Source of the DNA: Prochlorococcus marinus str. MIT 0919
Lineage (GTDB): Bacteria; Cyanobacteriota; Cyanobacteriia; PCC-6307; Cyanobiaceae
DNA length: 64,000 nt
Reading direction: 5' to 3'
Assembly: GCF_027359375.1 (NCBI RefSeq)
Contig: NZ_CP114779.1
Coordinates: forward strand, 186,001 to 250,000
Below the pieces are notes generated by a model that was given only the letters and a program-made list of their open reading frames with translations, did no database searches and was not told the DNA's origin. Every line of letters starts with the position of its first letter. The stretch's first letter is position 1. Positions 12,681-26,379 of this stretch are shown in pieces. A program made the position numbers and the translations under genes.

Positions 12681-14405
12681 ATGAGTAAAAAATACTTTGC
12701 TGAATTATCCACATTAAGGAAACTTAGTAAGAGATTTTTAAAATTAGGTATATTAATTTTATACTTAGCTTCTTCTTCTCCTGTTATAGCCAACTCTATC
12801 GACTCCGAAGACAGTGAAGATATAGATAAAGTATCTAGAAATATTAGTAATAGTAATAATGCAACTAAGAAGAAAGTTAAAATTAGGAGACCTAAGGCAC
12901 CTCCTTTAGGCGATATGGCCGTTGGTGAAATTTTTATTAATAGTAGAGGTTTTGTAGATATAAATGGTCCCGAAACTAGTATCACATTAATAAATGCCGA
13001 TCCTATAGATTCATTGCTTACATTATCCAAATTAGGCAATTATGGCTTTTTATATGTTCCAGATAACTCTCAAAACTCTGAAAATTCTGAAAATCCCAAT
13101 ATCACCTTATCTTTCGAGAAGGAAAAATATGAGAAAATCTTAAATAGCATACTTTTGGCATCAGGACTTCAAGGTAAACAAGAGGGTAATATCCTTATGG
13201 TTGGTAAAAATATTCTAAGTAAAAGCTTTGGACCTCAGGTCTCAAAAGTATATAGATTAAACCAGACTTCTGCTTCTTCCGCGGCAGATTATTTAGGAAG
13301 TCTTGGAGCTGAGATGAAAAAAGTTTGGACAAAGACAAATATGTTTAATGGCTCTGAATCGACAAATGGAATAACGGAATCAACATCTTCTTCAACAGGA
13401 GCTGAAATAGTTAGTTATACATCTAATTCAGGGCCACTTAAGGGGTTGATTGGAACTACTGACAGTCGACTACAGACAGTTACTCTGATAGGGGACCCTT
13501 ATTTGATTTCTATAGCAGAAAAGTATTTAAAACAGTTAGATTTACGCCAGAGACAAGTAGCTTTATCTGTAAAAGTAATTGATGTACTTTTAAATAACAC
13601 TACTGATATGAAGAATGCTTTTGAATATGGAATAGGAGATAATTATATTATTAATTCCGAGTCAAAGGGATTAATGTATATGTTCGGGAACAAGTCTTTT
13701 AGCCCTGCTGATTTTGCTGTTACAGATTCGTTCAGTTTAGCTAGTAGAAAGTTTATGGGCTGGTTCAGGTCAAAGGTATTGACTAATAATGCCAAAATAC
13801 TTGCGAATCCAACATTAATCTTAGGCGAGACACAAGAATCAGTTTTGGGTGGAGCAGAAGTGTCTGCATCTGATGGTATATCTGAATCATCAATTGGCAG
13901 GCCATATGCCAATGAAGCTTTTGTAAAAGTAGGTACTTCTGTAGTTACAAATTATTCTGTTACTCCTCAAGAAGATGGATCAAACCTTTGTGAACCCACT
14001 AGTTCTATAGCTGGAATCACCTTTGGTGCAAAAGTGCACAAGATTGATGATAACGGCTTTGTTTCCTTTAGCCTTAGCCCGAGTATATCAGCAGTTTCTG
14101 AAACTCAATCAATAGGTGATTGTGGAAATATCTCAACTTTGAGTATTAGAAGATTAGACACTGGGACTATAAGAGTTAGGGATGGAGATACTTTGGTACT
14201 TACTGGCGTTATAAAGGAGGATGATACAAAAGCTATTACTAAGACACCAATTCTAGGAGACATACCTTTGCTTGGAAGATTATTTAGAACAAATTCAACT
14301 GTCAGAAAGAAAAGTGAGTTGATAATACTTGTAACTCCAAAAGTTATTAAAGATACTGTCAGTGCAAATTTTATTAATGGAAATTTGGAGATTGAGAATA
14401 ACTAA
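12681..14405 (+). CDS. pilQ: Type IV pilus secretin (PilQ-like)
   Basis: Outer-membrane pore through which the pilus passes. 574 residues. A signal peptide lies near residues 20-38 (FLKLGILILYLASSSPVIA). The periplasmic region includes a secretin/TonB short N-terminal-type segment (ITLINADPIDSLLTLSKLG) and an N-domain (YRLNQTSASSAADYLGSLG). The C-terminal secretin domain ends in TPILGDIPLLGRLFR and SELIILVTPKVI, the family's signature. A Ser/Asn-rich stretch interrupts the middle (about residues 222-240). pilN follows two bases later. Confidence 0.9.
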   Translation: MSKKYFAELSTLRKLSKRFLKLGILILYLASSSPVIANSIDSEDSEDIDKVSRNISNSNNATKKKVKIRRPKAPPLGDMAVGEIFINSRGFVDINGPETSITLINADPIDSLLTLSKLGNYGFLYVPDNSQNSENSENPNITLSFEKEKYEKILNSILLASGLQGKQEGNILMVGKNILSKSFGPQVSKVYRLNQTSASSAADYLGSLGAEMKKVWTKTNMFNGSESTNGITESTSSSTGAEIVSYTSNSGPLKGLIGTTDSRLQTVTLIGDPYLISIAEKYLKQLDLRQRQVALSVKVIDVLLNNTTDMKNAFEYGIGDNYIINSESKGLMYMFGNKSFSPADFAVTDSFSLASRKFMGWFRSKVLTNNAKILANPTLILGETQESVLGGAEVSASDGISESSIGRPYANEAFVKVGTSVVTNYSVTPQEDGSNLCEPTSSIAGITFGAKVHKIDDNGFVSFSLSPSISAVSETQSIGDCGNISTLSIRRLDTGTIRVRDGDTLVLTGVIKEDDTKAITKTPILGDIPLLGRLFRTNSTVRKKSELIILVTPKVIKDTVSANFINGNLEIENN

Positions 14406-14407
14406 CT

Positions 14408-15106
14408 ATGCAAAATAAAAATAATAATTTCAACAGAATAGATCTATTAAAGAATAGACGAGAACAAGGAGGAATTGAAACAAACTTCTTTGCTAGGAAA
14501 AGAGAACTAATTGCTAAGGGAAGCTATATAGGAGGGATAATTATGTCTATTGTTTTATTGATCACTGGAGCCCTTTATTCAAGAAAAATTGGGTATGAAA
14601 ATCAAAAGAAAGAGATCTCAGCATTTGTTGTTGAATATAACAACTTACAAAATGAATTGAATGATAAATCCTCACAAATGAAAAAGATTGCAAGTTTTAA
14701 TAAAAAGCTTGCTAGTAATATACGTAAAATAATTTCAAGTTCAGCTTTTTTAACAGAAATCAGCAATATTATTCCTACTAATATAGAGTTATCTCTTTTA
14801 ACTATACAATCAAACTTTGTAGAATTCAAAGGCTCTGTCAAAGAGCAGAACGGATTGGAATTAGTAAATCTCTTTGCATTAAATATATCAGATTCTATAT
14901 TTTTTGATAATGAAGTATTTATTCAAAATATAGAAAGAAATAATACATCTATAAGCTCAGAAGAATCAGCCGAGTTGAAATTTACAATCAGAGCATCAGT
15001 AAATTCAGAATTACAAACCTTAGACTCCGAGACTTTGATTAGACTTGGTTCTCTTGGGAATGCTAATAGGGTTGAATATTTAGATAAGTTAGGACTTACT
15101 ATATGA
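14408..15106 (+). CDS. pilN: Type IV pilus alignment protein PilN-like
   Basis: 232 residues. A short cytoplasmic N-terminus (NRIDLLKNRREQGGIE) contains the kind of N(x)IDLLP-like peptide that binds PilM. Then come one membrane span (residues ~37-58, GGIIMSIVLLITGALY), a coiled coil (~65-115) and a ferredoxin-like periplasmic domain (FLTEISNIIPTNIELSLLTI and onwards). This is the PilN fold. It overlaps pilO by 4 bases. It joins PilM, PilO and PilP in the inner-membrane complex. Sequence identity to characterised PilN is probably low; the call rests on topology, motif and position. Confidence 0.8.
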   Translation: MQNKNNNFNRIDLLKNRREQGGIETNFFARKRELIAKGSYIGGIIMSIVLLITGALYSRKIGYENQKKEISAFVVEYNNLQNELNDKSSQMKKIASFNKKLASNIRKIISSSAFLTEISNIIPTNIELSLLTIQSNFVEFKGSVKEQNGLELVNLFALNISDSIFFDNEVFIQNIERNNTSISSEESAELKFTIRASVNSELQTLDSETLIRLGSLGNANRVEYLDKLGLTI

Positions 15107-15762
15107 GCTACTCTTCAATTAAAATTAATTCACGCAATAGATTATTAACACCCGAGAGGGCAGCTTTTTATATACCGGTATTCTCAGGTATCTTATTAGC
15201 TTTTTTTCTATTAGTGGGTCTTTTACTTCCAACAGCTTTATCAATGAATGAAACATATTTTGAATTAAGAGAGTATCAACGTAAAAAATCTGATTTGAAT
15301 AAGTTAAAGTCTCAATTTCAAATTATAAACTCTAAATATACAAAACTTAAGACCCAAAATAATAATTTAATTACTCTTTTGGCTGGTAACAATAACCTAG
15401 AGACATTGCTTGCAGAAATTAATTACCTTTGTAGTATTAATTTAATTGATATTGTCAAATTAAAACCATCAAGTATAGAAAGATTTAAACCATCAGAAGA
15501 GTTGAGTGATGCTGATAACGTCAACGGTGACCCTTTGCTTTCCAAAGGCTTGGAAAAATACACTGCCGAAATTATTTTATCTGCTCCTTATACTAACCTT
15601 TTAGAATTTATAAGGGATTTAGAGCTCATTGAAAATATAATAATTACTAAGAACTTTATTTTTGAATCAGATCAAAATGATATTAACTCAACATCAAATT
15701 CATTACAATTAAAATTTCTAATTTATGCATATGGTAGACAAAATATTATGCCCTCCAAATGA
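15103..15762 (+). CDS. pilO: Type IV pilus alignment protein PilO-like
   Basis: 219 residues. One membrane span (PVFSGILLAFFLLVGLLLPT), a coiled coil (LREYQRKKSDLNKLKSQFQI to about residue 90) and a C-terminal ferredoxin-like domain containing YTAEIILSAPYTNLLEFIRD, the segment most typical of PilO. Its start overlaps the pilN stop by 4 bases (ATGA), implying translational coupling. It should pair with PilN and dock PilP and the secretin. Confidence 0.8.
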   Translation: MSYSSIKINSRNRLLTPERAAFYIPVFSGILLAFFLLVGLLLPTALSMNETYFELREYQRKKSDLNKLKSQFQIINSKYTKLKTQNNNLITLLAGNNNLETLLAEINYLCSINLIDIVKLKPSSIERFKPSEELSDADNVNGDPLLSKGLEKYTAEIILSAPYTNLLEFIRDLELIENIIITKNFIFESDQNDINSTSNSLQLKFLIYAYGRQNIMPSK

Positions 15763-15798: not shown

Positions 15799-16236
15799 AT
15801 GACTTATCTTTACGCTGGTTTAGGGATTGCAATGATGAGCGGCATTATGGTTATGCTCAAGGTAGCAAGTAATATTAATAATATTTATACATATAATTAC
15901 AGCAAGACAAATAACTACCAGTTAAATTCTATTGCTAAGGACTTTGATAAAGATGCTATTAAAATTCTGATAGATACTGAAAATGGCTCTACTAAGCCAA
16001 GCAACATATGTGAAAGTGTATTAACTCAAAATTCAAAGACTGACTATAAGCTAGGTCAGCTAAATCCATCAACAGGAAAATATATAGATTCTAATCATAG
16101 TAGATTTTTAAATGCATGTCTAATAGAAAATTTAACTACCAATCATCGAATAATTATCACAGATATTAATCAGAAGTATAAATATTACTCTTGTATAAAA
16201 AATAAAAATTATAATACATGTACTTTTGAACAATAG
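15799..16236 (+). CDS. Pilus-operon protein with hydrophobic N-terminus, unknown
   Basis: 145 residues. It starts directly with a hydrophobic helix (LYAGLGIAMMSGIMVMLKVA), like a mature pilin, but has no G/A-x-x-x-x-E prepilin-peptidase site. The rest is polar and Asn/Tyr/Lys-rich with cysteines at NICESV, NACLIE, YSCIKN and NTCTFE, which could give two disulphides. It lies between pilO and the next small gene, 3 bases apart. It could be a non-processed pseudopilin or a membrane-anchored accessory; neither is proven. Confidence 0.6.
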   Translation: MTYLYAGLGIAMMSGIMVMLKVASNINNIYTYNYSKTNNYQLNSIAKDFDKDAIKILIDTENGSTKPSNICESVLTQNSKTDYKLGQLNPSTGKYIDSNHSRFLNACLIENLTTNHRIIITDINQKYKYYSCIKNKNYNTCTFEQ

Positions 16237-16238
16237 AA

Positions 16239-16472
16239 ATGATTCAATCTATATTAGGAGCTGTAATTATGTCTTTAGCAACATCATCTCTTTTGATAGC
16301 TATTCGTTTAGGACAAAATGCTTTGGATAACACCAAAAGGTATCCTTTGACTAATTATGAAAAAAATATTTTAAAATATGCTGGATATAATAAAGCAACT
16401 GATAGTGATATCTTAAGCCAGGAAATTTATGTAAAAATTGACCAGCTCCTTTTAGATAATAAAGCTCAGTAA
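16239..16472 (+). CDS. Small pilus-operon membrane protein, unknown
   Basis: 77 residues. The N-terminal hydrophobic helix (ILGAVIMSLATSSLLIAIRL) is followed by a soluble helical part (YPLTNYEKNILKYAGYN). The pattern of a hydrophobic helix starting at residue 4 and running on into an amphipathic helix resembles a pseudopilin stem, but there is no canonical peptidase site with Glu+5. It starts 3 bases after the previous gene and is followed 18 bases later by a true prepilin gene, so it is clearly within the operon. Confidence 0.6.
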   Translation: MIQSILGAVIMSLATSSLLIAIRLGQNALDNTKRYPLTNYEKNILKYAGYNKATDSDILSQEIYVKIDQLLLDNKAQ

Positions 16473-16490
16473 ACACCAACTTAAGTACTT

Positions 16491-17003
16491 ATGACTAATA
16501 CTATTAATCAATCTGAGAATAACGGGATGACAATTCCTGAAGTTACACTGGCAATTGCTATGTTAACTACTTTTACAGCTGTTTTTGTCCTCGTTTCTCA
16601 ATTTACAGCAGGCTTTTTTCAACCTATGGCAAAATCTGTTAACTCTAAACCTTACGATTATCTAAATGATTTCAATGATTTGCAAGTTATAATGGATAAT
16701 CTTACCGATATACTTGCTCAACCAGGTTATTCAAGGGAGGAATTAGACAAATTTCAATGTACAAATAATCCTTACGAAGTGTGGGAGCTACCTGGGAAAA
16801 ATAGACCTCTAGTTCCAGCTGGATATAATATATGTATTACTAGCAGTACCAATATGATTGAAAGTCCATTAGCATCACTTTCATCAACTTCAGATAAATC
16901 TAAGCCTGGTATTTATATACTCTTTGCAGTCCCTATACATGGTGTTTCAGGAGAATCATTACCAGTGAGACGGATTTTCTGCAGACCTAGTCCTTATTGT
17001 TAG
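16491..17003 (+). CDS. Type IV prepilin-like minor pilin
   Basis: 170 residues. A short leader ends at G12 (SENNG), followed by MTIPEVTLAIAMLTTFTAVF. This is a prepilin-peptidase site with Glu at +5 and a hydrophobic assembly helix. The mature domain is about 158 residues with cysteines at KFQCTN, YNICIT, RIFC and SPYC; the last two are seven residues apart at the C-terminus and may form a pilin-type loop. It is likely a minor pilin that primes or tips the fibre. PilD encoded at 25582 should process it. Confidence 0.75.
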   Translation: MTNTINQSENNGMTIPEVTLAIAMLTTFTAVFVLVSQFTAGFFQPMAKSVNSKPYDYLNDFNDLQVIMDNLTDILAQPGYSREELDKFQCTNNPYEVWELPGKNRPLVPAGYNICITSSTNMIESPLASLSSTSDKSKPGIYILFAVPIHGVSGESLPVRRIFCRPSPYC

Positions 17004-17015
17004 AAGAAAAATCGC

Positions 17016-19013
17016 ATGACAAACACACCAGCAAAAGTTAACTTATCTAATATAACTATTAAGGATATTATTAGTAGTCTACTTGTTTACCGTAAACAAA
17101 TATCTCATAGAGTTATCCTTATGGATTTCCGATATGATTCTATTAATTTAGCTGTAGCAAGTTCTGGTAAAAATAACGAAATAAATTTTGACAAGTTTAT
17201 TAGGTTAGTTCTTCCTCAAGAAGCCTTAGATAAATCTATTCCTACTTCACCAGATTTAATGGCCGACTTAATTAAAGAAACTATTACTGATTTAAATATA
17301 TTATCTCTTAGAGCATCTATTGTTTTATCAGCAGACATTTCTTATAATAGGCTTATTGATATTCCATCTAAATTGTCTATAGATGAAGCATTTGATTATG
17401 TATTAAACCCTTCCTCAGGTCTTCAAATACCGATCCCTATTTCCCAGATTGATTTTGATATTAATTCTACAGATCTACTTCCATTAATTAAGAATAAAAT
17501 TGAATATAAACGTTATTTATTAACTTCTATACCAAAAAAATCTACCGAAGCAGTACTAGAAACAGTAAATAAATCACAATTAGATGTACTCAATTTAGAT
17601 GTTAGCTTTACCGCTCAGCTTAGATTACTTAATCCTCACCTATCCTCTTTAAATACTAATGAGTATATTATCTTACTTGACTTAGTTAGTGAATGTACCC
17701 ATGTCGTTGTTTCAGACAGCCAAGGCCCTATTTATATTTCAAGATTGGCAGCAATAAGAAATTTTATTACACCAAGTTTAAAGCAAGAACAAGATAGTTT
17801 ACAGCAAGAGAAAGTAGATACTGCTAAGCAAGGAAGTTTTACTTCTCGCTTTGATGAAGAATCCTTGAGAATATCTAAACTTGATATAAGAGTCTTAGTA
17901 CGTGAAATTATTCAATTGTTAGGTGAATTAGCTACCACTCTTTCTTTAGAGGGTCAAGCTTCCCTCTTTCTAACAGGTCCAAATAGCCAACATCTTGGTT
18001 TGGTTAGGGTTTTAGGTGAATCACTTAATCTGCCAGTAAGTTTAATTTCACCTATAAATTCGCCAGGCATTGGTAATGTCAATTATGACCCTGAGAAATT
18101 CAATGAGCAAGAGTTATCTAGGTTGCTAGGATTAGGCCTTTCACTTTCTGCTTTTACTCCAACTCTTAAAACTAGTTTGTCAATTAATAGCAATATAATA
18201 GAGGACTATTCACCTGAAAATCCCAGTAAAATATCATCTTTCTTAAAAAATAATCAATTTAAGTCTATCCGAAATAGAAAAACCTCTAGTAAACAAAATA
18301 ATCAATTACGAAGTGTTGTAACTCCCAGGAATGAAAGTATTACCCCTTCAGAATTAACTAACAATAATAATAAAAATTTAGATGTCTCTAATAAAGTACC
18401 AGCACAAAATACTTCCCATGATGCTCAATTAAATAAGAGTTTTACAGGAAAGACTGATCAAGACAACAAACAATTTAATGGCTCAGAAAAGTTAATCACC
18501 AAAGATGATTCTTCAATGAAGAAGAAGCCATCAAGTAAGCCTCTCCCAAACTCCATAGCAAACACCCTTAGTACTTCATCATCATCTCAGGAACAGAATA
18601 ATGACTTGTCTAAACTTCCGCATTATCAAGAGGAAAAAAGTTCTAAAAAAAATCTTGATATGACTCTACCTGGAGAAATTGATTATAAGGAAGATGCAAA
18701 TACGTCCAGCAACATAAACTCAAAAACTAATCTTTCTTTAAATGTATCATCAAATATAGGTATAAAAACTAATGTAGACAAATTATCACCAATTCCAAAG
18801 TCCAAATCTAAATCAGAGATAAAAGAATCAACTTTAGATTCAAATTTCCAAATGGATCCCTCGTTTCTTGGAGTAGATAGATTAGAAGCTAATGCTCAGG
18901 AAATAAATCAAGATAATTCTAAACAAAGCAAAAAAAATTCTAATAAAGATGAAGATCTTTCTAAGGAATTTAAATTAGATCCCTCTTTTCTTGATTTGGA
19001 TGATAAAGATTAG
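17016..19013 (+). CDS. pilM: PilM-like actin-fold pilus protein with long disordered tail
   Basis: 665 residues, far longer than the ~350 usual for PilM. The N-terminal ~390 residues fit the actin-like ATPase fold of PilM (HRVILMDFRYDSINLAVASS at the start, IILLDLVSECTHVVVSDSQ and LFLTGPNSQHLGLVRVL later). The C-terminal ~270 residues are low-complexity, rich in Ser, Asn and Lys. The tail ends with two copies of a motif, FQMDPSFLGVD (about 611-621) and FKLDPSFLDLD (652-662). PilM binds the PilN N-terminus at the cytoplasmic face. It is last in the plus-strand operon, converging on pilC. Confidence 0.75.
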   Translation: MTNTPAKVNLSNITIKDIISSLLVYRKQISHRVILMDFRYDSINLAVASSGKNNEINFDKFIRLVLPQEALDKSIPTSPDLMADLIKETITDLNILSLRASIVLSADISYNRLIDIPSKLSIDEAFDYVLNPSSGLQIPIPISQIDFDINSTDLLPLIKNKIEYKRYLLTSIPKKSTEAVLETVNKSQLDVLNLDVSFTAQLRLLNPHLSSLNTNEYIILLDLVSECTHVVVSDSQGPIYISRLAAIRNFITPSLKQEQDSLQQEKVDTAKQGSFTSRFDEESLRISKLDIRVLVREIIQLLGELATTLSLEGQASLFLTGPNSQHLGLVRVLGESLNLPVSLISPINSPGIGNVNYDPEKFNEQELSRLLGLGLSLSAFTPTLKTSLSINSNIIEDYSPENPSKISSFLKNNQFKSIRNRKTSSKQNNQLRSVVTPRNESITPSELTNNNNKNLDVSNKVPAQNTSHDAQLNKSFTGKTDQDNKQFNGSEKLITKDDSSMKKKPSSKPLPNSIANTLSTSSSSQEQNNDLSKLPHYQEEKSSKKNLDMTLPGEIDYKEDANTSSNINSKTNLSLNVSSNIGIKTNVDKLSPIPKSKSKSEIKESTLDSNFQMDPSFLGVDRLEANAQEINQDNSKQSKKNSNKDEDLSKEFKLDPSFLDLDDKD

Positions 19014-19040: not shown

Positions 19041-20207
19041 TCATCCCATTTTATTTATCAAATCGAACATTGGAAGATATAAAGCGATTACTATTGTTCC
19101 TACAATTAACGCAACTACAGTTATAACTAATGGCTCCATCGCTTTTGTCAATGCAGAAACTGTTTCTTCAACTTCACGTTTATAGAAATTAGACAGGTTC
19201 TCTAGCATATAAGATAATTCACCTGTCTCTTCACCAATTTTAATCATTGAAAATAATAGTTTGGGCATTACTTTAGATAAGGACAGTGCATAACTTAGAG
19301 ACTGACCTTGTTGAATCAATGTTATAGATTTAGTTAATGCTTGCTTAATTATTTCATTCCCTGATGCTGATAGGCATCTCTCCAATGCTTCTACTAAAGG
19401 TATACCGGAATTAACTAATGTGCTTAATGTATCGCTAAATGATGCTATCTCTGATCTGAGGATTAAGTCGCCAAATAAGGGTATTTTTAAGGTTATACTG
19501 TCAACTAAAATTCTCCCTTTCTTTGTACTGTAAATATTTTTAAAGAGATAAATGAGCGTAAAAATTATTATTGGCGCACCTAAATAGAAACCTGTAGAGG
19601 TTACTATACTTGATAGCAATAACATAAAGCTTGTCAAAGCTGGTAGTTCTGCACCAAGACCATCAAAAAGTTCTTTAAATGTCGGTACAATAAATATTAA
19701 TAGAGCAAGGCTAATAGTAAGTGCTAGTGCAAATACAACTACTGGATATACTAAAGCCCCAGTTATCTCACCCTTTAATTTAGCCTTTGCTTCTAGCAAT
19801 ATTGCCACTCTTTCGAGAACTTTAGATAGTATTCCACCAGCTTCTCCAGCCTCAATTAATCCAACTGTTATAGGTGCAAATATTCTTGGATAAACTCTTA
19901 GGCAACTAGAAAGTTCTTGACCACCACTTAATCTTCTGGAAATATCATATATACATACGGCGAACTTCTTATTTATCATATTTTCAGATAATAATTCTAA
20001 ACCCTGTGCAAGTGGAACCCCACTTTGGAGCATCACTGATAATTGCCTGAAGAAAACTAGAAGTTCCTTTTGAGGTACTTTTAACTTAGGGTTAGGCTTC
20101 GCTTCTTCATTAAACAATGTAATGCTTAGGAATGCATTATCAGTTTTATTGATATTAGCTTGAGTATTAGCTTGAGTTAATGTCTTTTTACTACCATATT
20201 CAGCCAT
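19041..20207 (-). CDS. pilC: Type IV pilus platform protein PilC (GspF family)
   Basis: 388 residues, near the family norm. Two GspF domains are visible: FFRQLSVMLQSGVPLAQGLEL near residue 50 and FSDTLSTLVNSGIPLVEALE near residue 255. Membrane spans lie at ~150-175, ~200-225 and the C-terminus (VVALIVGTIVIALYLPMFDL). The E-T-G-E-L motif (IKIGEETGELSYML) is present. It anchors the PilB and PilT motors in the inner membrane. It is the last gene of the operon, 14 bases after pilT. Confidence 0.92.
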   Translation of the reverse strand: MAEYGSKKTLTQANTQANINKTDNAFLSITLFNEEAKPNPKLKVPQKELLVFFRQLSVMLQSGVPLAQGLELLSENMINKKFAVCIYDISRRLSGGQELSSCLRVYPRIFAPITVGLIEAGEAGGILSKVLERVAILLEAKAKLKGEITGALVYPVVVFALALTISLALLIFIVPTFKELFDGLGAELPALTSFMLLLSSIVTSTGFYLGAPIIIFTLIYLFKNIYSTKKGRILVDSITLKIPLFGDLILRSEIASFSDTLSTLVNSGIPLVEALERCLSASGNEIIKQALTKSITLIQQGQSLSYALSLSKVMPKLLFSMIKIGEETGELSYMLENLSNFYKREVEETVSALTKAMEPLVITVVALIVGTIVIALYLPMFDLINKMG

Positions 20208-20221
20208 AATTTTATATCTTC

Positions 20222-21262
20222 TTAGTCTATAGCTTTTGTTACAGAGGCTTTGTTTAGAGCTTGCTCTTTTGTAATTAGGCCTTTAATAACGAGGTCATTA
20301 AGGCACTGCTCTAATGTATTCATACCATCATTGCTACCAGTTTGAATTTGTGAGTATATTTGACTAACTTTTTTCTCTCTTATCAAATTTCCTATAGCAG
20401 GAGTATTTATTAGTAGTTCATATGCAAGTGATCTTTTCCCTAAAGTATTTTTACACAAGGTTTGCGACATTATCCCTGCTAACGATGTTGAGACTTGTAG
20501 CCGTGCCTGCTCTTGTTGATCTCCTGGAAAAACATCAACTATTCTTTCTACTGTTTTCGCAGCAGAGGATGTATGGAGAGTACCTAATACTAAATGCCCT
20601 GTTTCCGCAGCTGTAATAGCCAGTTGGATTGTTTCTAAATCTCTCATCTCTCCAATATAAATTACATCAGGGTCTTCTCTTAAGGCCGCCTTTAATGCCC
20701 TTGCAAATGAATCGGTATCTCTTTTAACTTCTCGTTGATGAATAATTGAATTTTCAGTATGTTCAAAGATAAATTCAATTGGATCTTCGATAGTTAGTAT
20801 ATGTCTTTTCTGAGTTTCTAATATGCAATTAATAAAAGCAGCTAAGGTTGTAGATTTACCTGAACCTGTAGGACCAGTACATAAGACCATTCCGCGTTCA
20901 AGCGTAGAAAGTTTAACAAATGGTTCTGGTAAACCAAGATCTTGCCATTTGGGTAAATTATCTGGCAGAAGTCTGAGAGTTAAGCATCTTTTTTCATTTG
21001 CTATATATGCATTTATTCTTAATCTTGATAAACCTTCTATACTTGTAGAACTATCTACATCACCAGTTTCATTAAATTCGCTAATCTTCTCTTTATCTAA
21101 CAACTCTAAAAGAAGTTCATCCATATCTTTACTTCTTAACTTCTGAGGGCTTATCTTTATATCAGAATTAACTCTTACAGCTATAGGTGAACCTTCTTCT
21201 AAATGAATATCTGAAGAACCAGCTTGTATTGCATAGGCAACGATCTCTTTTGATATTGACAT
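20222..21262 (-). CDS. pilT: Pilus retraction ATPase PilT
   Basis: 346 residues. Walker A GPTGSGKSTT (near 130), Asp box and Walker B LREDPDVIYIGEMRD, and a His box in TAAETGHLVLGTLHTSSA. The N-terminal PAS-like part opens with GSSDIHLEEGSP, typical of PilT. It depolymerises pili and powers twitching or DNA uptake in known systems. It lies 19 bases after pilB. Its presence implies the fibre is retractable. Confidence 0.93.
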   Translation of the reverse strand: MSISKEIVAYAIQAGSSDIHLEEGSPIAVRVNSDIKISPQKLRSKDMDELLLELLDKEKISEFNETGDVDSSTSIEGLSRLRINAYIANEKRCLTLRLLPDNLPKWQDLGLPEPFVKLSTLERGMVLCTGPTGSGKSTTLAAFINCILETQKRHILTIEDPIEFIFEHTENSIIHQREVKRDTDSFARALKAALREDPDVIYIGEMRDLETIQLAITAAETGHLVLGTLHTSSAAKTVERIVDVFPGDQQEQARLQVSTSLAGIMSQTLCKNTLGKRSLAYELLINTPAIGNLIREKKVSQIYSQIQTGSNDGMNTLEQCLNDLVIKGLITKEQALNKASVTKAID

Positions 21263-21281: not shown

Positions 21282-22934
21282 CTAGTCATCACTTTTGCAA
21301 ACTCTTTCAAGTTCTGAAAGTGTCGTTAATTGTTTCTTTACTAATTCTACTCCATATTGCTTCAAAGTAAGCATATTATTGCTATCGACAGCCAACTCTT
21401 CAATCTCTTTCTCTGTTTTATTTGCTGAAATAGCATTTTGTATTCGTCTATTTATTACTAATAATTCATAAGCTCCAAGTCTACCTTTATATCCTGTTCC
21501 AGAACATTGCCTGCAAAGGGTATTCTCTCTTTTCCTTTTTTCTTTTTCTTCTGAAGATAATACAGACGCGTACCTTATTGATGTGTTTCCTTTTATGCCA
21601 GTAAGTCTAGCTTCGTGATCCTGAATGGGTCTTTCTACACTGCATTCAGTGCATACTCTTCTTACTAATCTTTGGGCTAAAACCCCCCTTACAGAAGCAT
21701 TTAATTTGTATTTAGGCACGTCCATATCTAATAACCTTGTTAAGGAACTTGATGAAGTATTTGCGTGCAAAGTAGTAAATACTAAATGGCCTGTTTCCGC
21801 AGCATCCATAGAGGACTCTGCAGTTTCAGGGTCTCTAGTTTCCCCAATAAGTATTACATCTGGGTCTTGCCGCAAAAAGGTCCTAAGTAAGTTTGCAAAA
21901 GTTTGATTTTTTGCTCTATTTACTTGATGCTGCATTATGTCTCCAGCAAGGTCATATTCTATTGGGTCTTCTGCCGTTACAATTTTCAACTCTCCATTAT
22001 CCTTCTCTCGAAGAGCAGCTGCTAGTGTTGTCGATTTACCTGATCCTGTTGGCCCAGATACAATTACAATGCCATTACTATTGTTTATAATCTTTCTAAA
22101 ATCTTCTCTTACAGTTTCAATATTTATTAGTACATCTAAATCAAGCTGATCTGCTTCACTATTTAATATTCTGAGAACCATCCCCTCACCATGTTTGCCA
22201 GGGGCAGTTGAGCATCTGAATTCTAATCGATTACCTTCATATTTTCGTAATATCTTTCCATCTTGGCTTGCTCTTCTTTCGGCGATATCCATATGTGCCA
22301 TGTTCTTTAAACAAGCTACTAATTGTATACCAGCTCTTTTTGGCATAGCAAGATACTTCTGCATAACTCCATCTCTTCTTACTCTTATTTTGTAATTTTC
22401 ATCTTTTGGCTCTATATGTATATCAGAGACATTAGATTTACGAGCATTTATAAGTATCATGCCTGCCGCTCGTTGAGTTTTACTTTCCAGCATTTCATTG
22501 CCCAGATCTAATGCATCATCTACCATCTCTTCTTCTTCTATTTCGTCAAATTCAAGAGAAAATTCATTTTCACTATCTTCTATTGCAGAGTCTTGTAGTG
22601 CCGCAATTACAGCTTCTTCTGTAAACTCAGATATTTCTATACTTTCTCCACTTATAAATCTTTCTTCAGCTGCTAAATCAAGAAGTTCTTGTATCTTATC
22701 TGGAGATTTCTCTACGAATTTGCATTCAAGTCCTGATTGCTTTACACGATCTTTAATCGTATTGCCAATTGTACCTAAAAATACTATGTTTCCTACTGCT
22801 ATTGTAATGATAGATGGATTAGGTGGTAATGAAGGTTCAATTCCAATTGGTACAACTAAATTATCTCTACACCATTGAAGTGAAAAGTACTTATCAACTA
22901 AATCTCTTATTGTAGTTATAGAATTTTGAGCCAT
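21282..22934 (-). CDS. pilB: Pilus extension ATPase PilB
   Basis: 550 residues. The N-terminal ~120 residues form a divergent GspE N domain. The motor core has RKSNVSDIHIEPKDENYKI, Walker A SGPTGSGKSTT, Walker B RQDPDVILIGETRD and AAETGHLVFTTLHANTSSS. A four-cysteine zinc site (CTECSVE and CRQCSGTGYKGR) separates it from PilT, which lacks one. It drives pilin polymerisation. An acidic linker (about 118-145, EFDEIEEEEMVDD) precedes the core. It starts 3 bases after the large prepilin gene stops, so it should be translationally linked. Confidence 0.93.
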   Translation of the reverse strand: MAQNSITTIRDLVDKYFSLQWCRDNLVVPIGIEPSLPPNPSIITIAVGNIVFLGTIGNTIKDRVKQSGLECKFVEKSPDKIQELLDLAAEERFISGESIEISEFTEEAVIAALQDSAIEDSENEFSLEFDEIEEEEMVDDALDLGNEMLESKTQRAAGMILINARKSNVSDIHIEPKDENYKIRVRRDGVMQKYLAMPKRAGIQLVACLKNMAHMDIAERRASQDGKILRKYEGNRLEFRCSTAPGKHGEGMVLRILNSEADQLDLDVLINIETVREDFRKIINNSNGIVIVSGPTGSGKSTTLAAALREKDNGELKIVTAEDPIEYDLAGDIMQHQVNRAKNQTFANLLRTFLRQDPDVILIGETRDPETAESSMDAAETGHLVFTTLHANTSSSSLTRLLDMDVPKYKLNASVRGVLAQRLVRRVCTECSVERPIQDHEARLTGIKGNTSIRYASVLSSEEKEKRKRENTLCRQCSGTGYKGRLGAYELLVINRRIQNAISANKTEKEIEELAVDSNNMLTLKQYGVELVKKQLTTLSELERVCKSDD

Positions 22935-22937
22935 ATA

Positions 22938-24260
22938 TTAATACCAACACTTACACATGTTAGTTCTCGACCTATAACTTCTTGATTTTATGCAATTTCT
23001 ATTTATCCTACCTGGACAACATTTTATACCTTGATTATCTCTATACGATTTGTTTGGACATACATTACCACGATCATCTTCTTTCTGATCATTATCACCA
23101 TCACCACCACCACCACCACCACCAGATGATTTATTGCAAGATGAACTTTGATATTCAACAGATGTCAATGCCTCTCCTTTACAAAAATGATATGTAGTTC
23201 CACAAGGCTCTTTTATTCCATCGGCGGGTTGTATTTTATAAATACCCGTAAATTGTGTATTCTTTTTATTTGATTTATCTATATCACACTGCGTTTTTTT
23301 GACTGATTCTTTTTTCTCTTCGAAGTCTTCTTTAGTGTCAAATTGTTGGCCTGTATGGAACCAAAATAATTGCCCAGCACATTCTGGACTTTTAGTCTCA
23401 CCATTTGCGTTTGAAGTTATATATGCTTTGTTGACTACTTTGGATCTTTGCCATTCTTCGCATAAAGCTCCATACTTTCTTTTTCTAGCTGCTTCTACTT
23501 CTTCGCAATTTCTATATTCATTCCCTTCAAACATGCATTTAGGTGGATCTAAAAATTTACAGGAGCCAAGATCCTTGGCATTTCCTTTTTCAGGAGGTAC
23601 CCAAGTTTTTATTGGACCTGTCCATTTATCCATTCCTTTCTTTGTTATTTCAGATCCACAATTTGCTTTGTTTATCGCTATTTGTTTTAAGCGTGCAATA
23701 GCTGCCAATGCTTCAGGACTCAGTCCGCAATTATCTCCAGCCCAACCTCTACAAGAAGGAAGAGATCTAGGATTTGGATTGTCAGATGGGATTGCTTCTT
23801 TAAACACTTTTACTGAGCCAATTTCATTATCTTCATAAATTTGGAATCCCATTTGATATAAAAGGTCTTTATCCCTTTCATTAAGAGGCTTGATAGACAG
23901 TGCGCTGCATTTTGATTTCTCTGGATTAACGGAATATCCAAGTGTTTTCAATTTTTCTTTGCTTAGATTTTCAGGTGCTTTTTTATTGAATTCTTTTATA
24001 TCAGTTGAAATCCTATATTGTCCAAGGCAATCAGCGGCATAAGAATTCATTAAAGCCTTAGCCTCTTCTATCCGAGAAAGCTTTATTGTGTTAAGAACAT
24101 TTGGTATTGCAAAGCTGCCTAGAATACTAATTACACCCATTACTACTGCAACTTCAACTATGGTGAATCCTTCGGGCTCTGAAGCACGTATATCAAATAA
24201 TGATTTTAATTTCTTCTTCATAAGAACCTTCAACATTAAATATGCTTGAAGAAGAGACAT
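22938..24260 (-). CDS. Very large cysteine-rich type IV prepilin
   Basis: 440 residues, two to three times normal pilin size. A long leader of ~31 residues ends in EPEG, followed by FTIVEVAVVMGVISILGSFA: the peptidase site, Glu+5 and assembly helix. A regular pilin-like stem runs to ~residue 170. Then comes a ~210-residue region and, after a seven-glycine linker (about 380-386) and an acidic stretch, a basic Cys-rich end with a CCPG motif. I count about 20 cysteines. The protein is first in the operon with pilB, pilT and pilC. It is likely a tip adhesin-type pilin or a decorated major pilin; which one is not visible. AAGGA precedes the ATG. Confidence 0.85.
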   Translation of the reverse strand: MSLLQAYLMLKVLMKKKLKSLFDIRASEPEGFTIVEVAVVMGVISILGSFAIPNVLNTIKLSRIEEAKALMNSYAADCLGQYRISTDIKEFNKKAPENLSKEKLKTLGYSVNPEKSKCSALSIKPLNERDKDLLYQMGFQIYEDNEIGSVKVFKEAIPSDNPNPRSLPSCRGWAGDNCGLSPEALAAIARLKQIAINKANCGSEITKKGMDKWTGPIKTWVPPEKGNAKDLGSCKFLDPPKCMFEGNEYRNCEEVEAARKRKYGALCEEWQRSKVVNKAYITSNANGETKSPECAGQLFWFHTGQQFDTKEDFEEKKESVKKTQCDIDKSNKKNTQFTGIYKIQPADGIKEPCGTTYHFCKGEALTSVEYQSSSCNKSSGGGGGGGDGDNDQKEDDRGNVCPNKSYRDNQGIKCCPGRINRNCIKSRSYRSRTNMCKCWY

Positions 24261-24398: not shown

Positions 24399-24911
24399 TT
24401 AATATGAAAGTTGATAATTTTTACCTTTTAAGGTTAAAACAACAACTTGATTTTTAACATCAATTTCTTTCACCTTAACTCCCATAGGTAATAACTTAGT
24501 TGTTTGACCACCAATTTCACCTTGCTTTATTTGACCACTCATTGTTTTATATTTTATAAGAGCATATTTAACTTTATCTGTATATATTATTCCTTTTAAC
24601 TTTAGACTATTGGAAAGTATATTGCTAGATGAGTCCGAATAAGCAGAGAATGGGTCTGTTTTCCCAAAATTGGTGTCTGACTTTAATTTCTTGGCTGATT
24701 TTAATGGAATAAAACTGGTATCTATTTCTCTGGAGGGTTTTGTATCATTAATAGTTTGGATGGTTTTCTTATTAGCTGCTATAAGGGATTCAAGGCTTTT
24801 GGTATTGTCAAGAGTATTGTCTGTATTGTTTTTTACACAGCTAATTAGTAGTACTGGGGAGATAAATAACAATAAAAATTTAACCATAGTTTTTAATTGT
24901 AGAGTTCTCAT
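24399..24911 (-). CDS. pilP: PilP-like pilus lipoprotein
   Basis: 170 residues. A lipoprotein signal peptide ends at a lipobox (LLISC, Cys about 25). A flexible Asn/Thr/Lys-rich stretch follows, then TDPFSAYS and a small beta domain (LKGIIYTDKVKYALIKYKTM, then VKEIDVKNQVVVLTLKGKNY). This is the layout of PilP: lipid anchor, linker, a DPF-type segment that contacts PilN/PilO, and a beta sandwich that contacts the secretin. It is away from pilN/pilO but within the locus. The call rests on architecture more than identity. Confidence 0.7.
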   Translation of the reverse strand: MRTLQLKTMVKFLLLFISPVLLISCVKNNTDNTLDNTKSLESLIAANKKTIQTINDTKPSREIDTSFIPLKSAKKLKSDTNFGKTDPFSAYSDSSSNILSNSLKLKGIIYTDKVKYALIKYKTMSGQIKQGEIGGQTTKLLPMGVKVKEIDVKNQVVVLTLKGKNYQLSY

Positions 24912-24937: not shown

Positions 24938-24972
24938 AAAAAAGGCATCTAGAATAACTAGACGCCTTTTTG
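24938..24972 (-). terminator. Rho-independent terminator of pilA
   Basis: On the minus strand, downstream of pilA, the sequence folds as AAAAGGCGTCTAG, loop TTATT, CTAGATGCCTTTT with one mismatch, followed by more T. This is a GC-containing stem with a U-tract, a good intrinsic terminator. Confidence 0.8.
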
Positions 24973-24996: not shown

Positions 24997-25524
24997 TTAT
25001 TTCCAAGTCTTAGAAGAAGTACAGCCTGGTGCTTCCTTTTCACACCATTTGTATATCTCTCCTGTAGCCTTTTTCATGGAAATTACGAAATCTGCATCTG
25101 TTGTACTAGCAGCATCAGCCTGACCCTTGGCTGCAAAACATGTATCAGCAGAGGACCAACCATTTCCCTTAGCACCACTGACATCAGCTGCTACTGTCGC
25201 AATAATTTTGTAGCCAGAATAACTACCATTCGCAGATTGAGCATCTGACAGCGTTGTTGTGTCCATACTCGCTTCCCTCACAACACACTCTTTTAATGTA
25301 TTTACGAGACCATTTTTTATAGCTGATGCTCTTGCATTGGCTTGAACTCCAACAAAAGCTGGAATGGCAACTGCTGATAGAATTGCTAACACAGCAATTA
25401 CAACAACTAGCTCAACAAGTGAAAAGCCTTTTTGTGATGACTTTTCGCTTAGGATTTTTTGAACTCGTGGGCTTGTTAGATATGCTTGAATGAGATTCAC
25501 TTTTTTACGAGAGAAATTAAACAT
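24997..25524 (-). CDS. pilA: Type IV major prepilin PilA-like
   Basis: About 175 residues from the ATG at 25524; the longer frame to 25578 would use a TTG and crowd the pilD start. The leader of ~33 residues is unusually long and ends SSQKG. Then FSLVELVVVIAVLAILSAVA is a textbook class III prepilin site and assembly helix. The mature domain (142 residues) has four cysteines, two of them in the C-terminal segment KWCEKEAPGCTSS, a D-loop-like pair. It has its own strong terminator, as expected for an abundant fibre subunit. It is divergent from pilD, which makes the maturation enzyme. Confidence 0.9.
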   Translation of the reverse strand: MFNFSRKKVNLIQAYLTSPRVQKILSEKSSQKGFSLVELVVVIAVLAILSAVAIPAFVGVQANARASAIKNGLVNTLKECVVREASMDTTTLSDAQSANGSYSGYKIIATVAADVSGAKGNGWSSADTCFAAKGQADAASTTDADFVISMKKATGEIYKWCEKEAPGCTSSKTWK

Positions 25525-25581
25525 ACTAATAATATGATTGATTAGAAAAGGTATGTCAAGAAACTTCAGTGGATACAACTT

Positions 25582-26379
25582 ATGACAGTGATTTTTGTTG
25601 CTTCTTTTTTAATAGGACTATGCTTTGGCAGCTTTATTAATGTCCTGATTTGGCGACTACCTCGGGGTGAATCGCCAATATTACCTCGAAGTTATTGCCC
25701 CAGATGTAGATCTAGGCTTTTCTGGTTTGAGAATATTCCTATTGTAAGTTGGTTGATGCAAAAAGGTAGGTGTAATTCTTGCAATGGAGTAATTAGTCCT
25801 AGATACCCTATTGTTGAATTATTCACAGCACTATTATTTGTAATTTGTAATTTTAGTTATTTATATACTGAAGATATAAGATTAAACTTCTTTGTTTTGG
25901 TATCAGGTTGGATATTAGTATGTATTTTATTGTCGCTTACATTTATTGATATTACTCATTTAATACTTCCGCAGAGTTTAATAAGTCTTGGATATATGTT
26001 TGGAACTATTTATTTATTAGTTAGTTTAATTTACTTTAACTTTAATCTTTCTTATCTTTTTGATCATTTCTTAGCAGCATTCTTTTCTTATATAATATTT
26101 GAGTTTATTCGATTAGTAGGAAGACAAATTTATTCTAAGGAAGTTTTAGGCCAAGGTGATTCGAAACTGATTTCTATGCTTGGTTTATGGCTTGGAATTA
26201 AGTGCACTTATATAGCAATAGTATTGACTTTTATAATCTCTGCTACTTATGCAATCATAGGCCTAACTTTAAAAAAGATAGAGATAGGCAAACCATATGC
26301 CCTTGGTCCCTTTATAGCCTTCTCTGGATTCTTTGTGTGGATAGTTGGTTCTGAATTCTATTTTGCTAATTTCTTATAG
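25582..26379 (+). CDS. pilD: Prepilin peptidase / N-methyltransferase PilD
   Basis: 265 residues. The N-terminal methyltransferase part shows GLCFGSFINVLIWRLPRGES, then two CxxC pairs (CPRC and CNSC) that hold zinc. The aspartate protease part carries the catalytic Asp residues in LTFIDITHLILP and the GxGD motif in VLGQGDSKLISMLG. Six or more membrane spans are visible. It cleaves the leaders of the three prepilins in this window and methylates their new N-termini at the inner membrane. It is divergent from pilA, with starts about 57 bases apart. Confidence 0.95.
   Translation: MTVIFVASFLIGLCFGSFINVLIWRLPRGESPILPRSYCPRCRSRLFWFENIPIVSWLMQKGRCNSCNGVISPRYPIVELFTALLFVICNFSYLYTEDIRLNFFVLVSGWILVCILLSLTFIDITHLILPQSLISLGYMFGTIYLLVSLIYFNFNLSYLFDHFLAAFFSYIIFEFIRLVGRQIYSKEVLGQGDSKLISMLGLWLGIKCTYIAIVLTFIISATYAIIGLTLKKIEIGKPYALGPFIAFSGFFVWIVGSEFYFANFL

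Follow-up and report, generated by a model that had tools for sequence, protein, structure and literature searches.

Modular pilins, in which a binding module that is probably exposed at the tip has been grafted onto a pilin, are an established kind of subunit (PMC8179133). In Streptococcus sanguinis PilB and PilC, both minor subunits of type IV pili (T4P), a bulky module follows a small N-terminal pilin module (PMC8179133). CofB and TcpB of type IVb pili (T4bP) and ComZ of the Thermus type IVa pilus (T4aP) likewise carry large extra domains that are hard to name from databases and, in the part of the review that treats them, are thought to be located at the tip (PMC8179133). In marine picocyanobacteria, Synechococcus WH7803 encodes a second pilin, PilE, together with PilA (PMC7994388).

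The gene described here comes from a low-light Prochlorococcus, P. marinus str. MIT 0919 (Cyanobiaceae, host genome of 1,716,770 bp), and lies within the window, a stretch of 64,000 nucleotides that was analysed as a whole. The open reading frame (22938-24260, minus strand) encodes a prepilin of 440 residues. An earlier note on this DNA had described it as a large cysteine-rich prepilin with about 20 cysteines, and the count is exactly 20, against about 1% cysteine over the long reading frames of the window. This is the highest content among the 42 window reading frames of at least 150 residues, and the binomial probability of at least 20 cysteines in 440 residues is about 3e-8 at the overall cysteine frequency of the window. 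The leader occupies residues 1-31 (24168-24260, minus strand) with the cleavage site at G31|F32-TIVE, and it is of the class III kind found on type IV pilins, since G31 and E36 are invariant in 24 homologues. TIGR02532 recognises the prepilin with 17.7 bits (cut-off 16.3), and Pfam N_methyl gives 13.2, below its cut-off of 21.2. The close homologues align only from about residue 13, so that translation may start at M14 (24221) and not at M1.

Searched with the single sequence, 400 Cyanobiaceae genomes return about 26 long matches, and 24 full-length homologues from 24 genomes were aligned (A1). All share a common plan consisting of a type IV pilin module, a tandem cysteine-repeat arm, a variable linker and a short cysteine-rich cap. 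The prepilin signal, C78, C118, a WAG/WGG motif and a ladder of cysteines are present in every one. Modelling of the mature protein, which the earlier note had proposed as a check, gives the same layout. The AlphaFold2 model, built on 15 sequences (mean pLDDT 74.9), runs from a pilin module through alternating hairpins and long helices and ends in a disordered linker and a cap predicted with low confidence (pLDDT about 54); the placing of the domains relative to one another is uncertain (pTM 0.41). The arm, linker and cap are thus predicted to be fused behind a pilin module, as is characteristic of modular minor pilins. The type IVa pilin module itself spans residues 32-160 (23781-24167, minus strand), including the invariant C78 and C118. 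Over mature residues 23-149 it resembles solved type IV pilins in VIA-align, with a Z score of 8.7 to a PilA (rmsd 3.3, 106 residues aligned) and 8.2 to an Acinetobacter pilin, and a pilin fold is accordingly predicted for mature residues 1 to about 150.

The arm (residues about 165-377) is predicted to consist of tandem beta-hairpin-plus-helix units, and when modelled alone it reaches a pLDDT of 84 and a pTM of 0.51. Unit U1 (residues 168-232; 23565-23759, minus strand), delineated from the alignment and the models, contains C170 and C178, a long helix and C201. It is followed on the same strand by the cysteine repeats U2 (residues 234-293; 23382-23561), U3 (residues 294-352; 23205-23381) and U4, a short form (residues 353-377; 23130-23204). 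In profile comparisons with hhalign the scores are 29.1 for U2-U3, 25.8 for U2-U4 and 30.9 for U3-U4, with probabilities of 88-95% (94.6 for U4 with U3). When the columns of U3 are shuffled one hundred times, the highest scores are 13.8 with U2 and 18.2 with U4, a control that covers the two pairs with U3. By these profile alignments U2, U3 and U4 are mutually related, and U1 has no clear relation to the other units in hhalign. A repeat profile made from the three related units recovers U2 (1.9e-15), U3 (1.0e-17) and U4 (9e-4) and nothing else across the host genome. In Synechococcus-like genera, some homologues contain one more stretch of the arm type.

The earlier note knew of no named domain for the end of the protein, and the searches agree. 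In Pfam and NCBIfam the whole protein matches only through its prepilin signal, leaving arm and tail without a match, and neither a vWA nor a concanavalin-like lectin domain, the modules of S. sanguinis PilB and PilC, is recognised by Pfam in any of the 24 homologues. The arm also has no match by PDB sequence or Foldseek, and a fold search with the arm alone against the PDB and viral models gives nothing at E <= 0.001. A second look with VIA has a best Z score of 4.0 among only 120 chains, which leaves room for a distant known fold. No ligand-binding domain is recognised in any part of the protein. Antibody-like phmmer matches around the glycine run were set aside as they look like low-complexity matches. 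A possible likeness of the cysteine pattern to the chitin-binding peritrophin type was entertained on inspection by eye only.

The extra cysteines of the arm tend to come and go in twos. Six of the 24 homologues have cysteine in both of the columns for residues 302 and 316, and the remaining 18 have it in neither (p 7e-6); further optional pairs in the homologues behave in the same way. One homologue lacks both C170 and C178, and in another C360 has disappeared along with its partner. The optional pair sits at equivalent places of the repeat units. Gain and loss by pairs at equivalent repeat positions supports disulfides, and the arm cysteines are probably bonded in this manner. The predicted bonds are C201-C234, C267-C294, C325-C353 and C360-C375.

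Behind the arm lies a linker (residues 378-400; 23061-23129, minus strand) containing seven glycines and an acidic spacer, with a pLDDT of 33-38 that marks it as disordered. The glycine run was placed by the earlier note at about residues 380-386 and is found precisely there. Its richness in glycine is inessential, given that the linkers of the homologues differ widely in length and composition, being rich in glycine, in proline or in lysine and glutamate, or reduced to just 2-6 residues. The basic cap (residues 401-440; 22941-23060, minus strand) has cysteines at 401, 414, 415, 423, 436 and 438. The CCPG motif by which the note had characterised the tail does exist, at residues 414-417. It lies inside the tail and not at its end, and it is not conserved among the homologues; what is conserved is the spacing of the cysteines, ending in most homologues in CxC or C-x4-9-C. 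At least four spaced cysteines occur in 23 of the 24 caps, the exception having two (L041), while the other residues are hypervariable and the net charge lies between -3 and +9. In two close strains (L066 and L067) the pilin part is 80% and the repeats are 83% alike, against 35% for linker and tail, and in such comparisons change in the cap is far more rapid than in the rest of the protein. The earlier note's picture of a large pilin with a module displayed behind a flexible linker is supported by the predicted pilin fold and the disordered linker, but the main grafted module is the cysteine-repeat arm and not just the tail, which is a short, fast-evolving cap.

The surrounding genes encode components of a pilus machine. 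On the minus strand the order is pilA, a 170-residue lipoprotein, the modular pilin gene, pilB, pilT and pilC. The modular pilin gene had been taken to open the operon of the pilus motors, but two genes of its strand, pilA and the lipoprotein gene, precede it, which makes it third in the cluster; pilB starts just 3 bp downstream. The assembly ATPase PilB (21282-22934; PF00437, 1.8e-101), the retraction ATPase PilT (20222-21262; TIGR01420, 424.6 bits, cut-off 319.1) and the platform protein PilC (19041-20207; PF00482, 2.4e-56) follow in turn. Upstream, pilA (24997-25578, with an ATG start at 25524 that gives the frame 24997-25524; PF07963, 34.5 bits) probably encodes the major pilin. The lipoprotein (24399-24911) is syntenic in relatives and has a lipobox-like LLISC by eye; it has no Pfam or NCBIfam match, so that calling it PilP-like is a matter of appearance. 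The first residues of the modular pilin reading frame, MSLLQAYL (24237-24260, minus strand), resemble the PilA leader in relatives (MSLLQAYLRKPRTQ), and the homologues of the modular pilin do not have them.

The plus strand carries the prepilin peptidase gene pilD (25582-26379; PF06750 and PF01478) and a run of genes on the other side of the motor. These are the secretin gene pilQ (12681-14405; PF00263, 3.9e-29), a pilN-like gene (14408-15106; PF05137, weak at 0.021 and below cut-off), a pilO-like gene (15103-15762; PF04350, weak at 0.0012 and below cut-off) and a pilM-like gene (17016-19013; PF11104, 6.4e-12). Between pilO and pilM, at 15799-17003, lie two small conserved pilin-like genes that match no family and have homologues at the same place. 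One (15799-16236) encodes a membrane-anchored protein that is minor-pilin-like by position and the other (16491-17003) a minor-pilin-like protein with a GMTIPE motif. A search for PilY1 (PF05567) gives no match, but it gives none in the control genomes either.

An intrinsic terminator with a 14-bp stem and a T run follows pilA (24939-24971, minus strand). Standing between pilA and the modular pilin gene, it suggests that the latter encodes a minor pilin and fits an excess of PilA over the modular pilin. Among 14 relatives in which the two genes are equally far apart, 8 have terminator-like structures after pilA. Such structures were mostly not detected where pilA directly adjoins the modular pilin gene, so the argument from abundance is not general and minor status is best regarded as probable.

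The distribution of the arm follows that of one pilus machine. An arm-only profile (A3) matches 27 of the 400 Cyanobiaceae genomes, and among 291 genomes sampled across the phylum its matches fall exclusively in Cyanobiaceae; outside this family the full-length profile matches only through the N-terminal pilin part. A single-sequence scan of genome contigs detects no relative, a profile from alignment A2 finds 14 loci in them, and one scan of viral contigs finds no relative. The nearest relative among named records is from Prochlorococcus sp. AG-402-G22. PilC, searched for in the same 400 genomes, has a match in 246. In 28 of them it is 57-100% identical to the PilC of the window, compared with near 40% in the others (one at 48%). 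These 28 genomes of the distinct PilC clade include all 27 that have the arm; the contig of the 28th starts inside pilB, leaving the position of the pilin gene uncovered. By comparison, none of about 218 genomes with canonical PilC alone carries the arm. Several genomes have both PilC types together (e.g., G267). The PilC clade of the window was not seen in about 125 other cyanobacteria sampled at E <= 1e-85. In the relatives examined the modular pilin gene stands immediately before pilB, usually with pilA upstream and sometimes with a lipoprotein gene between or before them; in a few, pilA lies beyond pilD. Gene order and co-occurrence assign the modular pilin to a distinct T4aP machine found in marine picocyanobacteria.

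Other large pilin-like proteins are encoded in these genomes. The host genome has one of about 400 residues with a long Glu/Ala/Lys-rich stretch and a cysteine-rich end (L125:8491-9663, minus strand; C1 at about 1539630) and another of at least 532 residues, mostly long AEAKA-type repeats that likely form a long helix (L123:1483-3078, plus strand; C1:860555). A 494-residue pilin-like protein of the Cyanobiaceae genome G131 (L127:2766-4250, minus strand) has a C-terminal half that is vWA-like by eye.

A subunit that bears a repeat arm with a fast-changing end and occurs solely with one pilus machine probably makes the outward contact of that pilus. The preferred reading, with a probability of roughly 0.6, is that of a modular and probably tip-exposed minor type IVa pilin for the recognition of a surface or ligand, which rests on analogy with known modular pilins (PMC8179133) and on the variable exposed end. 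PilD would cut the prepilin at G31|F32, and the N-terminal helix would anchor the subunit as in any pilin. The PilB/PilC motor encoded directly downstream would then assemble it together with abundant PilA. The arm of disulfide-stapled hairpin-plus-helix repeats would stand on the pilin module and carry the flexible linker and the cysteine-rich cap, which at the pilus tip would meet surfaces, other cells, particles or phages before retraction by PilT pulls the cell. The bulk of the subunit would fit best at the tip, although the module might instead dangle along the shaft on its flexible linker. An adhesive function is plausible.

In marine picocyanobacteria, pili are known to retard sinking and to impede grazing (PMC7994388), which makes a purely structural role a serious rival. 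Here the arm would complete the tip complex of a drag or suspension pilus, priming or capping it without binding any ligand. The modular pilin accompanies the distinct PilC clade throughout, and with just two other small pilin-like genes in the locus it could carry much of the tip role. Yet the cap evolves at a much higher rate than the remainder of the protein while keeping its cysteine pattern, and the number of repeats varies, features more in keeping with an exposed, interacting end than with a fixed structural plug; the structural role is rated as somewhat unlikely. Rapid change of the cap could also serve chiefly for escape from phages or grazers, whatever it binds, if the modular pilin were the principal antigen exposed on the pilus. 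The C-terminus of picocyanobacterial PilA1 has been proposed to vary for phage escape (PMC7994388), and close strains differ strongly in linker and cap. Variation by itself names no selecting agent, however, and this account is considered improbable. Large minor pilins can also bind DNA, as the passage on ComZ in the review records (PMC8179133), and the net charge of +7 over the last 26 residues would suit a receptor that captures DNA for natural transformation in the manner of ComZ and other DNA-binding minor pilins. However, the charge of the cap is not constant among homologues, and a search of the host genome for ComEC (PF03772) finds none, with Synechococcus elongatus positive as a control. 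Nor was ComEC found in any carrier outside the two larger-genome genera g5 and g50. DNA uptake is therefore unlikely in these organisms, and a receptor role is very improbable.

Extending the preferred reading of a tip-exposed recognition subunit, a dedicated second type IVa machine may operate in marine picocyanobacteria, including low-light Prochlorococcus. Its hallmark would be a new class of tip adhesin, with a disulfide-stapled arm of variable length and a hypervariable cysteine-rich cap, that serves in the open ocean to select surfaces, particles or partner cells. This wider proposal is tentative and is given less than even odds.

Few phototrophs are as abundant as Prochlorococcus, whose cells are generally regarded as drifting freely. 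A conserved pilus machine bearing a variable and possibly adhesive subunit of its own would offer a concrete part for contact with particles, cells, grazers and phages. The modular pilin can also serve as a marker separating two pilus systems that earlier pilA1 surveys may have pooled, and the list of modular pilins gains an undescribed module.

The PilA/PilE pair of WH7803 is encoded by genes 1795/1796, far from the PilT gene 0020 (PMC7994388), whereas the modular pilin gene adjoins the pilBTC genes of another PilC clade; the two pilins thus differ in genomic setting. The extra domains of CofB, TcpB and ComZ, as the review describes them in its account of these pilins, are of the beta-repeat/beta-sandwich or beta-solenoid kind (PMC8179133), in contrast to the predicted hairpin-plus-helix repeats of the arm. 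Unlike PilB and PilC of S. sanguinis, the picocyanobacterial protein has no vWA or lectin module. In their place it carries the cysteine-repeat arm, the variable linker and the cysteine-rich cap, a combination found here only in picocyanobacteria. Modular minor pilins are a known kind, and what is new is the repeat arm with its variable cap; as judged from the homologues, the arm is a real and conserved module, not described before, and the pilin that bears it is part of a distinct T4aP of picocyanobacteria.
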